A DNA stretch of 58,050 nt from Gemmatimonadaceae bacterium (GTDB lineage: Bacteria > Gemmatimonadota > Gemmatimonadetes > Gemmatimonadales > Gemmatimonadaceae). Both the position numbers and the translations under genes were made by a program. The stretch covers positions 1-58,050 of the forward strand of contig JANWIF010000011.1 in NCBI GenBank assembly GCA_025450035.1, written 5' to 3'. The notes below the pieces were generated by a model that saw nothing but the letters and a program-made list of their open reading frames with translations, made no database searches and was not told where the DNA came from. Each line of letters starts with the position of its first letter. The stretch's first letter is position 1. This document shows positions 16,015 through 56,020 of this stretch, one piece after another.

Positions 16015-17094
16015 TTACTCGACGTTGATGGGCACGCGGTGCCATGCGTTGTTTCCATAGCCTTTGACGTTCCACACCTCGGCGACGGTCGCTGGCTGCA
16101 CCGTGCCACTATCGTCCGTGGCCCGCACGACCAGCGTGTGTCGTCCCGGCTGCAGCACGACGTCCGCCTCCCAGAACATCCAGGTCCATGTGCCGCCCGT
16201 TGCCAGGCTGCGCGCCGGCAGCCAGTCCTGTCCATCGTTAGGCGAAAGTTCCACCCCGATCACCCGCCGCCCGCCCGATCCCAAGGCCCATCCGCGGACA
16301 CGCACCGTACCGGCCGGCACGACGCGGTCGGCCTGTGGCTCGACGATGACCGCGTTGAGCGGTACGTCGCGCATCGCGACGCCCGCCGAGACATCCCGCG
16401 GATCGTCCGAGTTCACCTCGCGCTGCACCCGATACGCCTTGCGCTGGAAATAGTTCTCGGATGCCGCATCTGAGACGACAATGTCCGTCAACCACTTCAC
16501 GCTTCTCGCGCCGATCCATCCCGGCACCACGACGCGCATGGGGAAACCGTGCGACACCGGGAGCGGTTCCTCGTTGAGGTCCGTCGCGAGAAGCACCTCG
16601 GCGCCCAGCGCCTTGTCCAGGTCGATCGAGGCGCCGAAGCCGAAGCGATGGCCGTGTCGCTCGACCTCGTCACGCCCGATGAATTCGACGTGTCGTGCTC
16701 GCTCGGTCACGCCCGATGCACGGAGCACATCGCTCAGCGCGACGCCGCTCCACAGCCCGGTGCTCGCCGCCTCCGGTCCCCACGGCAGCTCGCCGGTCAG
16801 CGGGCCTAACGAAAGGAATTCGTTGCGCCGCATGCCGGCGCATACGAGCGTCGCCGTCACTCGTCGCGTCGGAAACACCGCGCCGAGCTCGGCGAGCGAC
16901 AATTCCAGCGGCCGCTCCACCAGGCCCTGCACGTGGAGTCGCCACGTGGAAGGATCGATGATGGGATACGCCGCGTGGCTGCGAGTCAAGAACTGGTCGA
17001 CCGGCGTGATCACCTGGCTAGCCTCGATCACGGGTCTGGTGCCGGAGTTTCGCCCTTCCACGTCGTGAATCAGGCGACCGTTGGACGTCGTCAT
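16015..17094 (-). CDS. Sulfite-oxidase-like molybdopterin oxidoreductase
   Basis: This is a 359-residue enzyme of the sulfite oxidase family, which uses a molybdenum-molybdopterin cofactor to oxidise sulfite or related substrates. The Moco domain shows VTATLVCAGMRRNEF, with Cys85 as the molybdenum ligand, and EPLPVSHGFPMRVVVPGWIGARSVKWL, the pterin-binding segment. A C-terminal dimerisation domain follows, with VRVRGWALGSGGRRVIGVELS and WTWMFWEADVVLQPGRHTLVVRATD. No signal peptide, haem domain or membrane anchor is present, unlike many bacterial sulfite dehydrogenases, so the electron acceptor is unknown and it may be cytoplasmic. The ATG at 17092-17094 lacks a clear ribosome site. It ends 54 bp before the promoter of the LVIVD operon and looks separately transcribed. 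Confidence 0.92.
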   Translation of the reverse strand: MTTSNGRLIHDVEGRNSGTRPVIEASQVITPVDQFLTRSHAAYPIIDPSTWRLHVQGLVERPLELSLAELGAVFPTRRVTATLVCAGMRRNEFLSLGPLTGELPWGPEAASTGLWSGVALSDVLRASGVTERARHVEFIGRDEVERHGHRFGFGASIDLDKALGAEVLLATDLNEEPLPVSHGFPMRVVVPGWIGARSVKWLTDIVVSDAASENYFQRKAYRVQREVNSDDPRDVSAGVAMRDVPLNAVIVEPQADRVVPAGTVRVRGWALGSGGRRVIGVELSPNDGQDWLPARSLATGGTWTWMFWEADVVLQPGRHTLVVRATDDSGTVQPATVAEVWNVKGYGNNAWHRVPINVE

Positions 17095-17141
17095 GGTAAG
17101 GAAGATGACGACAGGTCCATACGCTGACCAGATCGCCGCGC

Positions 17142-50307: not shown

Positions 50308-52149
50308 TCAGAACCCCGGCGGCGTCTCATTCCGTACGCCTAACGCACGTTCGAGCGCCAGTCCCGCTCGCGCAACGGTTCCTTCATCGAACAACTTCCC
50401 GATGAATGTGACGCCGTGCGGTACGCGCCGCGGCGGCGAGAACTTTGGCAGCGGATGCGCCGGGTCGGGGGCCCAATCGCTGCGGGCCTCGTTGACTTCG
50501 ACGAAGCCGGTGCGCAGGGTCAGGGATGGATGGCCGGTGAAGTTGGAGATCACCAGCATCTCGTCGCGCAGCGATGGTACGAGGAGCACGTCCACGGTCG
50601 TGAAGATGCGCGCCATCTCCTGCGCCACCTTCCGCCGAAACCGATCCGCCTGTACAAAATCCACCGCCGACAGAAAGCGTGCGCTTCGGAACAGGTTAGG
50701 CCATGCGTCGGGCGTCTGAACACGAAGCTGGCTCATCTGTCCGCTCAACGTCAGTTCCTCGAACGCGGCGGCCGCTTCGGCGAACAGGATGACGTTGAGC
50801 GAGTCGTACGGCCAATCCGGAAGCGCGACCTCGGTCGGCACCATGCCCAACTTGCCAACCGATTCCAGTGTCGCGCGGTCCACATCGGTGGCGGGGCTCT
50901 CCTTCATCCACGCGGGGATGTAGCCCACGCGCAGACCCTTCGCCGATGCCCCGGCATCGAAGTCCAGCCGGCTGGGAACACTCTCCACGTCGCCGGCGTC
51001 GGGACCGGAAATGGCATGCAACACGAGCATGGTGTCCTCGACGCTCCGTGCCATCGGGCCGAGTTTGTCGAGCGACCAACAGAGCGTCATGGCGCCCGTG
51101 CGCGGCACCCGGCCGTACGTTGGGCGCAGACCCGTCACGCCGCAGCGCATACTCGGGCTGACGATGCTTCCTCCGGTCTCGCTGCCTATGGCGAATCCGA
51201 CCAATCCTGCTCCGGTCGCGGCGCCGGGTCCCGCGCTCGAACCGGATGAGCCTTCTTCCAGCAGCCACGGGTTCATGGTCTGCCCGCCGAACCAGATATC
51301 ATTGAGCGCGAGCGCGCCCATGCTCAACTTGGCCACTAACACCGCCCCAGCATCACGCAACCGGCTCACGACCGCGGCATCGGCTGTGGGCACCCGGTTT
51401 CTGTACGGCTCGGCACCATACGTAGTGGCGATGCCCGCAGTGTCCAACAAGTCCTTTCCACCCCAGGGAATCCCGTGCAGCGGTCCGCGATAGTGGCCGG
51501 CCGCAATCTCCGCATCGGCCTTCTTGGCCTGCGCGAGCGCCAGATCGCGCGTGAGCGTGATCACACAGCGCAACCGAGGATCGAACCGCTGTAGTCGCTC
51601 CAGATAGATGTTCGTTAGGCGCTCGGAGCTGAGCCGGCGCGCTTCGATCCAGCGCGAGAGTCGAGTTACGGGCGCGAAGGCGATCTCCGCGTCGCTGGAT
51701 GGCAGCGGACCAGGATCGGCGGTGCCGCGAACGAAGCGGTCGCGTCCGGAGGCAGGCCCCGCATGGTCGCTCGCGAGCACCGGGTCCCAGCGTGTCGCCG
51801 GCGACACACCCGGTTCAAGCGCAATCTTGCGCGGACCCGTGCGTCGCTCGAGGTAGGGCGCCATCGCTTGCGGCCAGCTTGCCGCGGCCATGGTCCGCTC
51901 GGCATCGCTCAGCTCGACCTGCGACAGCTTTTCCGCCTCCAGGAACGTTGCGGGCGACACCTTGGGCCCAACGGCGGGCGCCGAGGCAAAGGTCGGCGGC
52001 GCGCCGGCGGGAGCCGCACTAGCCCCACTAGCCGCACCAGCCGCGCCGGCAGCGTTAGGAGTGGGCTTTTCTGCCTGGTCACGACACGCGATGGCCGCAC
52101 TCAGCAGACCAAGCGGCGCACGGATCAGAAATTGTCTGCGCGAATTCAC
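50308..52149 (-). CDS. Amidase signature family enzyme, exported
   Basis: This 613-residue hydrolase of the amidase signature family has a twin-arginine-like leader (NSRRQFLIRAPLGLLSAAIA) ending in a possible lipobox Cys. An Ala/Pro-rich linker precedes the amidase domain. The Ser-cisSer-Lys triad is visible: Lys232 in GIPWGGKDLLDT, the cis-Ser in EEGSSGSSAGPGAATGAG near residue 305, and the nucleophile Ser328 in IGSETGGSIVSPS. The Gly/Ser signature region is complete. Substrates of exported members are largely unknown. Translation starts at GTG 52147-52149 with GGAGAGG just upstream. Three GTTAGGC-motif copies fall inside it, in three different codon contexts (Leu-Gly, Pro-Asn, Leu-Thr). Confidence 0.93.
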   Translation of the reverse strand: MNSRRQFLIRAPLGLLSAAIACRDQAEKPTPNAAGAAGAASGASAAPAGAPPTFASAPAVGPKVSPATFLEAEKLSQVELSDAERTMAAASWPQAMAPYLERRTGPRKIALEPGVSPATRWDPVLASDHAGPASGRDRFVRGTADPGPLPSSDAEIAFAPVTRLSRWIEARRLSSERLTNIYLERLQRFDPRLRCVITLTRDLALAQAKKADAEIAAGHYRGPLHGIPWGGKDLLDTAGIATTYGAEPYRNRVPTADAAVVSRLRDAGAVLVAKLSMGALALNDIWFGGQTMNPWLLEEGSSGSSAGPGAATGAGLVGFAIGSETGGSIVSPSMRCGVTGLRPTYGRVPRTGAMTLCWSLDKLGPMARSVEDTMLVLHAISGPDAGDVESVPSRLDFDAGASAKGLRVGYIPAWMKESPATDVDRATLESVGKLGMVPTEVALPDWPYDSLNVILFAEAAAAFEELTLSGQMSQLRVQTPDAWPNLFRSARFLSAVDFVQADRFRRKVAQEMARIFTTVDVLLVPSLRDEMLVISNFTGHPSLTLRTGFVEVNEARSDWAPDPAHPLPKFSPPRRVPHGVTFIGKLFDEGTVARAGLALERALGVRNETPPGF

Positions 52150-52170
52150 GGCACCTCTCCAAGTAACGTT

Positions 52171-52776
52171 CTAGTCAGGCAGAACGATACCGTGGTGGCC
52201 GGCCGTGTGCGAGCGCCAAATGCAACGCGCGACCTCGAGGCGTCGGCGGATTGAGGAGCCGAGGTCAGCCAACGCGCGGCAAGGCGCCGCGCACTCGTCC
52301 CACCTCCGCGACGCGCGAGCGCAGGGCATCTGACGCCGCACCCCACGTGAAGAGCTGTTCGAGGCGGTGGCGCCCGATCGCCACCCACCGCTCGAAGGTC
52401 GCCGAGCCGCGTACGGACACTCCGTGTAGAAGCGGACCGCTGTACGCGCCACGACCGCTGCCCAATCCCCGGACCCGGCTGCTGTCGTGACCTGCGCGGC
52501 GTCCACCCGCAGGTCGGCATCGCACGAGAGAAATACTTCGCTCTGCCGAGCCGCGATCGCGTTGCGCCCGAGTACGCGCCGAAGATGAGACAGCGCATCG
52601 CTCAACGAGTGGCGAGCGCGATCCTCGTCCTGATCTCCCCAGAACATTTCCGTCAACTGATCGCCCGTCAGGGGCACGACTGGGCGCAGCACGGCGCGGA
52701 AAACAACCGGCGTGCGCAGGCCCGGGACTATCCCAATGTCATCGAGGCAATCACCGCCGCGCGTGGACGGTGGCAC
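52171..52776 (-). pseudogene. Decayed SARP/BTAD-type transcriptional activator
   Basis: This is the remnant of an AfsR/SARP-like regulator. The frame from 52776 reads QLTEMFWGDQDEDRARHSLS, then DALSHLRRVLG and AADLRVDA-like sequence, as in the DNA-binding and BTAD helices of these activators. Near 52447 the homology jumps to another frame (AYSGPLLHGVSVRGSATFER, then WVAIGRHRLEQ). Near 52325 it returns to the first frame (ASRRWDECAA), and near 52290 it moves to the third frame (SARRLAARWLTSAPQSADAS). At least three frameshifts are needed to rebuild one protein. The C-terminal TPR or ATPase part is missing. The order of the pieces is exactly collinear with intact relatives, so this is gene decay rather than chance. 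Confidence 0.75.
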
Positions 52777-52813
52777 GTCTCACGACGCTGGTTCGCGTCT
52801 TCAGTTCGTGCAT

Positions 52814-53488
52814 TCACCCCGTGAAAAGTGCGATCGTGAAGCCGTCGTAGCCCTTGCTCCCCACGGTCTGGATCGTCGTCGCGCTCACACGGGATTCGGC
52901 GCGGAGCAGTTCATTGAAGCGACGTACTCCCTGCACGCGAGCGTCATCGCTTGCGTCGTCGATCACGGCACCGTCGCGGATGACGTTATCGACGATAATG
53001 AGACCGTGAGGAGCCGCGAGCTCGAGTGCCCACTCGAAGTACGCCGGAATGTTCTCCTTGTCGGCATCGATGAAGATCACGTCAAACGGGCCGGTCCCTT
53101 CGGCCGCGAGCCGCGGGAGTGTTTCGAGCGCCGCGCCTAGGCGCACGTCGACGAGCGACGCAAGCCCCGCCCGCTCGATGTTCCTCCGCGCAACAGCGGC
53201 GTGCGTCGGGTCGGACTCGAGCGTTATCAGATGGCCGGCCGGCGGAGGAGGGAGCGCTCGCCCGAGCCAGATCGTGCTGTACCCGCCTAACGTGCCGATC
53301 TCCAGAATCCGCCGGGCGTCACGCGTCCGCGCCAGCAGCTGCAGCAGCTTTCCCTGGTTTGGTGCCACGTTGATCTGCGGGAGACCGGCCGTAGTGCTCG
53401 CGTCCAGCGCCGCGTCCAGCGCCGCGTCTGGTGGTACCAGCATGTCCGTGATGTAGCGATCGACTGCGGTCCACTGCTCTTGGGTCAT
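52814..53488 (-). CDS. Class I SAM-dependent O-methyltransferase (CCoAOMT-like)
   Basis: This 224-residue methyltransferase of the caffeoyl-CoA/catechol O-methyltransferase family shows NVAPNQGKLLQLLA near the start, motif I RILEIGTLGGYSTIWLGRAL, then LITLESDPTHAAVARRNIERAG, the metal-binding FDVIFIDADKENIPAYFEWAL and GLIIVDNVIRDGAV, and RRFNELLRAESRVSATTIQT. The substrate is probably a small catechol-like compound. ATG at 53486-53488 (MTQEQWTAVDRYITD) fits family length; the frame continuing upstream to 53908 would add an unrelated Arg/Cys-rich segment. An internal 12-bp tandem repeat encodes an Asp-Ala-Ala-Leu repeat near residue 24. It is divergent from the pilin operon. Confidence 0.92.
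   Translation of the reverse strand: MTQEQWTAVDRYITDMLVPPDAALDAALDASTTAGLPQINVAPNQGKLLQLLARTRDARRILEIGTLGGYSTIWLGRALPPPPAGHLITLESDPTHAAVARRNIERAGLASLVDVRLGAALETLPRLAAEGTGPFDVIFIDADKENIPAYFEWALELAAPHGLIIVDNVIRDGAVIDDASDDARVQGVRRFNELLRAESRVSATTIQTVGSKGYDGFTIALFTG
53400..53428. repeat. 12-bp tandem repeat inside the O-methyltransferase gene
   Basis: GCGTCCAGCGCC is present twice in perfect copies (53400-53411, 53412-53423), followed by a partial third copy. In the minus-strand gene it encodes a DAALDAALDA repeat in a surface loop. Its unit keeps the reading frame, so copy number could vary without breaking the protein. Confidence 0.6.
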
Positions 53489-53889
53489 CCGACGGAGTGC
53501 GGTGGGGGGCCAACGAAGAGCCCGGCTGCCACCGTTGCAGCCGGCCTCATGTGAAGAGATGCCGCCTGCCTCGAATACTCGCAGATCGCCCGCCTGGTGG
53601 CAAACTGCGACACCACGCGCGGGCGCTGCTTCGGGCAGTATGCGGTGCGCGAGGCCATCAGGCGCATTGGACTCAACTGCATATGTGGCAGTTGCCTGGA
53701 ACATGCGCGGTGAGTCCTTCCTGCACGGGCGGTGCTCCTCTTGCACCTGCGGCAGCGGGAATCCTCGAGTCGCGCACAGAAGAGGCGTGCGATTCGGGGT
53801 GGTTCCGCACTCGATCTCAAGAGGTTGCCCGAGGGACGCTCGCTGGATACTCCCGCGAACGCCGACCGCTGGGCTTCTGGAGGCCGTGC
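53489..53889. other. Intergenic region between divergent O-methyltransferase and pilin operon
   Basis: This 400-bp region carries no gene that I recognise. A frame open across it on the plus strand runs into the first pilin gene but has no protein-like character. No clear -35/-10 pair was found for the pilin operon. GGAGG at 53879-53883 is the ribosome site of the first pilin gene. Confidence 0.45.
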
Positions 53890-54474
53890 ATGCACCGAGC
53901 GAAGACAATGAGTCGCGGCCAACGGCGGCGCGGCTTCACGCTAATCGAGATGTTGACGGTGGCGGTCCTTATTGGGATCCTCACCGCGTTCGTCGCGCCG
54001 CGCATCGACTTCACATCCTATCGCGTGAACGGTGCCATGCGCGGCATCGGTACCGGGATGCTCAGCGCCCAGCGACTCTCGGTCACGCGCGGGTACGACG
54101 TCGTCGTCGAATTCGACGCAACGGGCAAGGCCGTGCACGTGCTTGACGACGCAAACAACAACGGTGTGGCCGATGCCGGTGAGCACGTTTCCTCGATCGC
54201 GCTCGGCGATCTGATCGTTTTCGGCCGCGGCGCGGCGCCCTCGATCGATGGAACAGCTGGAGCCGTGACGTTCGATCAGATCAAAGGCGGACTTCCCTCG
54301 GTGACGTTTCACCGCGATGGCAGTGCCAGCCAGGCAGGTACGGTCTATCTCACGTCCGCGCGTGCCATGAATCAAGGGACCGCCAACGATGCACGAGCAG
54401 TTACCGTCGACCGCGCCACCGGGCGCGTGTCCTGGTACGCATACAACAGTGGCACCTGGGTACGGGGGTTCTGA
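53890..54474 (+). CDS. Minor pilin, FimT/GspH type
   Basis: This 194-residue type IV pilin-like protein has the prepilin leader MHRAKTMSRGQRRRG, cleaved before FTLIEMLTVAVLIGILTAFV, with the conserved Glu at +5 and the hydrophobic assembly helix. The rest is beta-rich (YDVVVEFDATGKAVHVLDD, VTFHRDGSASQAGTVYLTS) as in GspH/FimT minor pilins that start the pilus tip. ATG at 53890 has GGAGG at ideal spacing. A later ATG at 53908 is also possible. It is the first of four co-directional genes. Its stop overlaps the next start as TGATG. Confidence 0.88.
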   Translation: MHRAKTMSRGQRRRGFTLIEMLTVAVLIGILTAFVAPRIDFTSYRVNGAMRGIGTGMLSAQRLSVTRGYDVVVEFDATGKAVHVLDDANNNGVADAGEHVSSIALGDLIVFGRGAAPSIDGTAGAVTFDQIKGGLPSVTFHRDGSASQAGTVYLTSARAMNQGTANDARAVTVDRATGRVSWYAYNSGTWVRGF

Positions 54475-54851
54475 TGCGACGCAGCGGATTCACTCTCATC
54501 GAGGTCATGATGGCGCTGGTGATCCTGCTTAGCGTCATCCTGGGCGTTGCCCAGATCACCGCGCGGATGGTTCACACGGTGGTCACCAGCGACCAGCAGC
54601 TTACGGCCGTGCAGCTTGCCGAGGACCGGCTGGAGCAGATCCGGCTCGATCAGGACTACACTGATCTGGAAACCACGTACGACGGTACCGAGACCAGTTT
54701 CCCTACGCTCACCGGCTTCACACGCACGACGATCATCACGCACGTCGGGGGCGCGGGGAAGGCGTCGGACTACAAGAAGATCACCGTGACCGTCAGCGGT
54801 CCCGGCATCCTCTCGCCCATCGCGCGTTCCGTGACAGTGGGGGCGCCATGA
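54474..54851 (+). CDS. Minor pilin, PilV/GspI type
   Basis: A 125-residue pilin with the very short leader MRRSG before FTLIEVMMALVILLSVILG, the standard type IV pilin N-terminal helix with Glu at +5. A helical spine (QQLTAVQLAEDRLEQIRLDQ) and beta strands follow. The EDRLEQIR segment after the helix is typical of PilV/GspI. The start overlaps the stop of the upstream pilin gene by one base (TGATG), and its own stop overlaps the next start (ATGA), so translation across the operon is likely coupled. Confidence 0.88.
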   Translation: MRRSGFTLIEVMMALVILLSVILGVAQITARMVHTVVTSDQQLTAVQLAEDRLEQIRLDQDYTDLETTYDGTETSFPTLTGFTRTTIITHVGGAGKASDYKKITVTVSGPGILSPIARSVTVGAP

Positions 54852-56020
54852 CGACGCGTTCGCAACTCCGGCGCGGCGTCACGTTGCTCGAGTTGCTCGT
54901 GGCGCTGATCGTGTTCGGCGTTGTCACGGCCGGCGCGTTGCGCTTCATGAGTTCCCAGTCCGGCGCGGTCCGATTGGGCAACGACCGCATGGGCGCACTC
55001 CAGAATCTGCAGTTCGGGTTGGGCATGCTGGATGACCAACTGCGCACCGCCGGCAGCGATGTGCCGGACAAGCAGCCGTACCTGGTGTACGCCGGCGCGA
55101 ACGTCATTGCCTTCAACGCGGACTACGCGAGCAATGTCGCGGGCGACCCCTATTCCGTATACGTCGATCCGGACGCGCCGAATGGCACCGTGAGCGCCAT
55201 GACCACGGGGCAGCAGATCACGATTCCCAACACGACCTTCATCTACCCGACTATCAACTACAACACCTCTGGTGTGAATAGTCCGGCCGAGACGATCATC
55301 TTTTTCCTCGCGCCCGACACGACGACGGCGCGCACGGACGACTACGCGCTGTACCGGCAAGTGAATAACGATCTGCCCGAAATTGTTTCGCACAACATCC
55401 TCGCGACGACAGGGCTGCCGTTCTTCCAGTATTCGCGCGTCGTGGCTGACGCCAGCGGCGAGTTATCCATCGCACAGGTGCCGGCGGCGACGCTGCCACT
55501 GATGCACTCGGTGGCACTCCACGGCGATGCGGCGGACACTGGCACGGCGTCCGTCATCGACAGCATTCGCGCGGTGCGCGTCACGTTCACCGTGACCGAC
55601 GGCAACACGGGCGTGAAGGAGCACAAGCGCCAGTTGTCGCGCTTGATCACTCTGCCCAACGCGGGCCTCCCCGTGCGGCAGACGTGTGGCGATCCCCCGA
55701 TCCTTGGAGTGGCGCTCACCGCGATCGAGCAGACGCTCCCCAGCGGAGACAAGGCTGTTCAGCTCACGTGGAACGCTGCGGTGGACGAAATCGGTGGCGA
55801 AAAGGACGTGATTCGCTACGTGATCTGGCGCGAGCTGTCTACGGCCACCTCGTGGGGCGATCCCTATCTCAGCATTCCAGCGGGCGCGGCGCCGTACACC
55901 TACACCGACGCGGCCGTCGACACCGGCAGCACGTACAAGTACAAGCTCAAAGCGCAAGATTGCAGTCCGTCGCTCTCCACGACCGAGGCCGTCTCGGCGT
56001 CGGTGACGATCGCACCATAA
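54848..56020 (+). CDS. Minor pilin, PilW/GspJ type with C-terminal Fn3-like domain
   Basis: The 390-residue protein has a prepilin leader ending in RRG before VTLLELLVALIVFGVVTAGALRF and the LQNLQFGLGMLDDQLRTAGSDV segment that marks PilW-type minor pilins. Unusually, after about residue 280 it continues into a beta-sandwich region (ILGVALTAIEQTLPSGDKAVQLTWNAAVDE, VIRYVIWRELS, YTYTDAAVDTGSTYKYKLKAQD). This resembles a fibronectin type III domain, with the typical valine/tyrosine pattern. A pilus-tip adhesive function is possible. The ATG overlaps the previous stop as ATGA. Confidence 0.88.
   Translation: MTTRSQLRRGVTLLELLVALIVFGVVTAGALRFMSSQSGAVRLGNDRMGALQNLQFGLGMLDDQLRTAGSDVPDKQPYLVYAGANVIAFNADYASNVAGDPYSVYVDPDAPNGTVSAMTTGQQITIPNTTFIYPTINYNTSGVNSPAETIIFFLAPDTTTARTDDYALYRQVNNDLPEIVSHNILATTGLPFFQYSRVVADASGELSIAQVPAATLPLMHSVALHGDAADTGTASVIDSIRAVRVTFTVTDGNTGVKEHKRQLSRLITLPNAGLPVRQTCGDPPILGVALTAIEQTLPSGDKAVQLTWNAAVDEIGGEKDVIRYVIWRELSTATSWGDPYLSIPAGAAPYTYTDAAVDTGSTYKYKLKAQDCSPSLSTTEAVSASVTIAP

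Follow-up and report, generated by a model that had tools for sequence, protein, structure and literature searches.

A probable pseudogene of a SARP/BTAD-type regulator between an amidase gene and an O-methyltransferase gene in a Gemmatimonadaceae bacterium

An open reading frame of 201 aa is listed at positions 52171-52776 in a contig of a Gemmatimonadaceae bacterium, and the locus raises the question of whether a gene is present here or the remains of one. The window, by which we mean the whole 58,050-nucleotide stretch of DNA that was analysed, is contig C11 (G000:C11) of a 3.5-Mb, 171-contig assembly that is 81% complete. An earlier note on this DNA had proposed that pieces of one BTAD-type protein lie here in three frames, between two intact genes, as a recently decayed duplicate of a SARP/BTAD regulator. 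It can be seen that the flanking genes are indeed intact. The amidase gene (50308-52149, minus strand; Pfam PF01425, 6.2e-78) is unbroken, with residues 1-613 of 613 and no internal stops, and has near-full-length matches in relatives, and the O-methyltransferase gene (52814-53491, minus strand; PF01596, 8.5e-39) is likewise unbroken, with residues 1-225 of 225 and no internal stops. The interval between them is 664 bases.

When the listed frame was scanned against Pfam, the only match was to Trans_reg_C and fell below threshold (E 0.042), with no match to PF03704; the two other frames at the locus gave no Pfam match, and a search of the bacterium's own genome with the Pfam BTAD model left the locus unlisted. 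Taken by themselves these results would suit a chance resemblance to regulators. However, a whole-genome search with the listed frame matched a G005 protein with E 2.7e-23 (HMMER), and residues 35-109 of the frame are 63% identical (47/75) to the same-genus locus L033, beyond which the match continues in other frames. We aligned the minus strand, allowing frame changes, to a profile of ten open-frame relatives. This gave a score of 493, as opposed to 295 when frame changes were forbidden, while the highest scores among 98 controls were 66 for 58 random window segments (two of the 60 segments drawn being skipped as near the locus) and 56 for 40 single-base shuffles. We conclude that three minus-strand frames carry collinear pieces of one BTAD-type protein, as had been proposed, with about 150 residues traceable in order, and that the probability of a chance resemblance is vanishingly small.

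The frameshift-tolerant alignment runs from 52674 down to 52227 on the minus strand and spans profile residues 51-200; the remnant so defined (52227-52674, about 150 residues) also emerges from DNA alignment, in which the G004 relative (L064) is 67.9% identical over 417 columns (window 52240-52650) in a match that runs through the breaks. Four frame changes, at about 52447, 52346, 52311 and 52283, are packed into about 165 nt. The switch near 52447 had been placed correctly before, whereas the two others suggested, near 52325 and 52290, stand for the last three of these changes. All pieces lie on the minus strand. The first (52447-52674), which shares its frame with the listed ORF, covers what is left of a winged-helix DNA-binding domain together with the beginning of the BTAD part, as seen from the frame map and the L033 match. 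The second (52347-52446), in another frame, is from the BTAD helical region; tblastn matched 52349-52444 to L062 with 62.5% identity over 32 residues. The alignment then places two short pieces within 52284-52346, with the shifts at about 52346 and 52311, and a last recognisable piece at 52227-52283, beyond which the C-terminal part is missing. Alignment of the frame translations with intact BTAD regulators, which the earlier note had put forward as a check, thus found homology across the frames and in collinear order. A winged helix followed by a BTAD region, the arrangement that marks a SARP/BTAD regulator, is present by descent only: with four shifts and both ends unrecognisable, there is no complete open frame with an N-terminus and a full BTAD domain.

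The two ends of the gene were considered separately. At the N-terminal end, about 50 profile residues are gone or unrecognisable. The 139 nt where this end would be expected (52675-52813, minus strand) showed no secure homology in a shuffle test: when 52675-52816 was aligned with each of six relatives, 10-179 of 300 shuffles equalled or exceeded the observed DNA score, whereas the 142 bases that directly follow this stretch scored 104-150 against the same six. The edge is not a sharp one, as two HMMER alignments extend upstream of it by some 10 residues, one as far as about 52707 and the other as far as about 52701. At the other end, several alignments stop at about 52224-52240, and for the stretch 52150-52246 the observed score was equalled or exceeded by 14-146 of 300 shuffles with each of six relatives. 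Since shuffles so often reach the scores at both ends, the alignment drawn for the end stretches was disregarded and the leftovers were rejected as recognisable homology. It follows that the C-terminal part is missing, as had been noted, but the loss is not C-terminal alone, and the remnant does not extend down to 52171 as had been supposed.

The loss of both ends bears on the possibility that assembly or sequencing errors have broken a living gene. In favour of errors, the shifts are small and relaxed selection is hardly detectable (see below). Against them, both ends are missing although the flanking genes are 139 nt away on the methyltransferase side and about 75-90 nt away on the other, four shifts fall within so short a stretch, and three other genes of the same assembly, for the amidase, the methyltransferase and glutamine synthetase III (GSIII), are unbroken. 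On account of the lost ends and the three unbroken genes, we consider error as the sole cause very improbable, which supports the earlier note on this point. Programmed frameshifting in a living gene would agree with a divergence like that of coding genes, but four shifts would be needed where six aligned relatives use one frame, and both ends would still be absent, so that this explanation appears extremely unlikely.

Open-frame relatives at 60-63% identity were found in three of five genomes of the same genus. Over 142 residues, the remnant is 62.7% identical to the regulator of G005 (L062), 60.6% to that of G003 (L063) and 59.9% to that of G004 (L064), and over the same residues identity to relatives in other genera of the family is 55.6% (G007, L065), 54.2% (G034, L072) and 52.8% (G032, L073). 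All five relatives that were scanned passed the PF03704 cut-off, while their PF00486 matches, at 20.4-26.0 bits, lay just below the family cut-off of 26.2. In a tree of 142 columns and 30 rows, made up of the remnant and 29 stretches chosen from 60 matching loci (some genes being represented twice among these loci), the position of the remnant next to the same-genus trio is weakly supported (SH-aLRT 73.7, ultrafast bootstrap 66). The same-genus regulators (G003:C546, G004:C72 and G005:C87) have the winged helix and the BTAD region in the same order as the remnant, but each is a single open frame that keeps its N-terminus and C-terminal part, and each lies at another genome position. The long BTAD regulators of G007, G034 and G032 also differ from the remnant in being single open frames, of 1038, 997 and 985 aa, respectively; TPR repeats are present in both long relatives scanned (those of G007 and G034). 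Because open-frame relatives this close exist in the genus, the disrupted but homologous stretch is best regarded as a pseudogene, and with collinear homology, frame changes and open relatives all in agreement with the proposal of a decayed SARP/BTAD-type regulator, we are confident that the remnant derives from the gene of a BTAD (SARP-type) transcriptional regulator, now a pseudogene, of a kind that is still open in relatives.

We also noted that the open relatives within the genus are short, with 389 residues in G003 (L063:9370-10536), 473 in G004 (L064:4474-5892) and 502 in G005 (L062:7646-9151), compared with 985-1038 aa outside it, and that an internal stretch of the G004 regulator is absent from the G003 regulator. 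This may point to a shortening of the regulator within the genus.

The earlier note had further taken the remnant for a duplicate, that is, for the decayed copy of a regulator still intact in the same genome. BTAD genes are certainly multi-copy in relatives (with the G004 protein as query, 9 matches in G004 and 18 in G021 at E <= 1e-10), and as the assembly of the bacterium itself is 81% complete an open copy could be absent from it. However, a single gene in this assembly, on contig C38, matches the Pfam BTAD model, and searches with the listed frame and with the G004 protein returned the remnant and the C38 gene only. The latter is 27.5% identical to the remnant over 142 residues and falls outside its tree group, so that no close open copy was found in the 81% of the genome covered.

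The site used by the relatives was also inspected. In G003, G004 and G005 the regulator adjoins an OmpA-type gene and the GSIII gene. Contig G000:C35 keeps the GSIII-OmpA block together with a periplasmic binding gene and an ammonium-transporter-like gene (a name given from a reading of the sequence, not from Pfam), as in G005, and tblastn with the G004 and G005 regulators gave no match in this block. At the G005-type site of G001 and G002, GSIII is followed directly by the end of the contig; no close relative of the regulator was found in these genomes, which are 75% and 88% complete and whose best matches to the G004 protein have 32% and 37% identity. We conclude that the remnant is unlikely to be the duplicate of a gene kept elsewhere in the genome, and that claim of the earlier note is not supported. 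With the assembly 81% complete, a better fit is a copy that had been relocated or had long existed in parallel, possibly the only one of its kind left in this genome, and that was lost recently. On contig C35, about 85-100 residues of a phosphodiester-glycosidase-like gene that is about 500 aa long in G004 and G005 were seen at L129:5283-5580 (tblastn, at most two pieces per pair), which is a hint of a second decayed gene.

Gene order was compared around the homologues of the two flanking genes, in seven neighbourhoods of the methyltransferase (L066-L071 and L076) and seven of the amidase (L121-L127). None of these 14, several of which are short or cut off by the end of a contig, had the gene arrangement seen here: neither the second flanking gene nor any match to the listed frame at E <= 1e-20 was present, and no sister strain with an open gene at this locus came to light. 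In G003, G004 and G005 the amidase and the methyltransferase lie on separate contigs. A contig scan with six peptide patterns, which possibly omitted records very near the window's own, found two true relatives, both elsewhere. A Lysobacterales match (L139) was rejected as a relative, being a short, out-of-frame stretch with a blastn E of 0.018 that we take as chance.

Some features of the surroundings were recorded in their own right. The O-methyltransferase is closest to a protein from another family of the order (G040, 73%), with 60-63% identity in the four genomes of its own genus that have a match; transfer or old paralogy is possible. A further copy of the amidase gene, 77% identical, lies in its own genome at L121:5168-6970 (G000:C23), and in four of five same-genus genomes there is one match each, of 77-80%, while G002 has none above 51%. 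At 53911-56020 of the window, three plus-strand genes in a row carry prepilin-type N-terminal methylation motifs. A molybdopterin oxidoreductase gene at 16018-17097 lies about 36 kb from the methyltransferase here, and its homologue adjoins the methyltransferase in G003, G004 and G005.

To judge when the gene decayed, we compared the pattern of change in the remnant with that in open genes. No stop codons were found when the remnant was projected onto the relatives' frame (150 codons, slightly beyond the secure homology). The share of differences at third codon positions is 46-51% for the remnant, depending on the partner, 46-58% for open pairs at the same distance and 61-72% for pairs within the trio. 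By the NG86 method, the remnant and the trio differ by a dN of 0.33-0.34 and a dS of 1.4-1.9, and the resulting dN/dS of about 0.17-0.25 falls among the values for open pairs that are equally distant, although a dS over 1 is saturated and makes the test a blunt one. In a comparison of 140 codons, the remnant is changed at 9 of the 54 columns on which the other open genes all agree, which may be set beside 8/62, 10/64 and 5/59 for the distant open genes of G007, G034 and G032, and 2/56, 0/54 and 1/55 for G005, G003 and G004, which are close to one another. The excess of change on the remnant branch at codon positions 1 and 2 was -0.006 to 0.096 in nine comparisons; bootstrap intervals excluded zero in three of these, all with G032 as outgroup. 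As the remnant has diverged like equally distant open genes, most of the divergence probably arose in a working gene and the decay came late. This agrees, within the limits of a blunt test, with the earlier view that the decay is not ancient, and is to be read as a loose bound on time and not as a date.

A potential course of events is that a relocated or old parallel copy of the gene lost both ends by deletion or rearrangement, and that small insertions and deletions would have gathered after the gene ceased to do anything. Rearrangement would be a simple route to losing both ends, and the neighbourhood differs from that of the relatives. With the N-terminal DNA-binding part, a continuous BTAD frame and everything downstream lost, the locus would, to judge from its sequence, hardly give a working regulator now. 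There is a very slim chance that the 201-aa frame, or a shorter piece with most of the winged helix, is still made and serves as a small DNA-binding decoy at the sites that the lost regulator targeted. Bacterial pseudogenes typically combine truncation and small insertions or deletions with sequence that is otherwise conserved, and the remnant resembles them with no notable difference.

Judged by title, none of the papers listed in literature searches appears to deal with this gene or with BTAD pseudogenes in Gemmatimonadota; reading-frame transitions in prokaryotes are, in outline, the topic of PMC3711429. The locus holds a real regulator pseudogene of an ordinary kind, whose decay is probably recent. 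For annotation it carries the warning that the 201-aa ORF listed here is probably no gene. It is also a remnant in which conservation at the protein level persists even though both ends are cut and the frame is broken, and one example of how members are lost from a regulator family of which relatives carry several copies.
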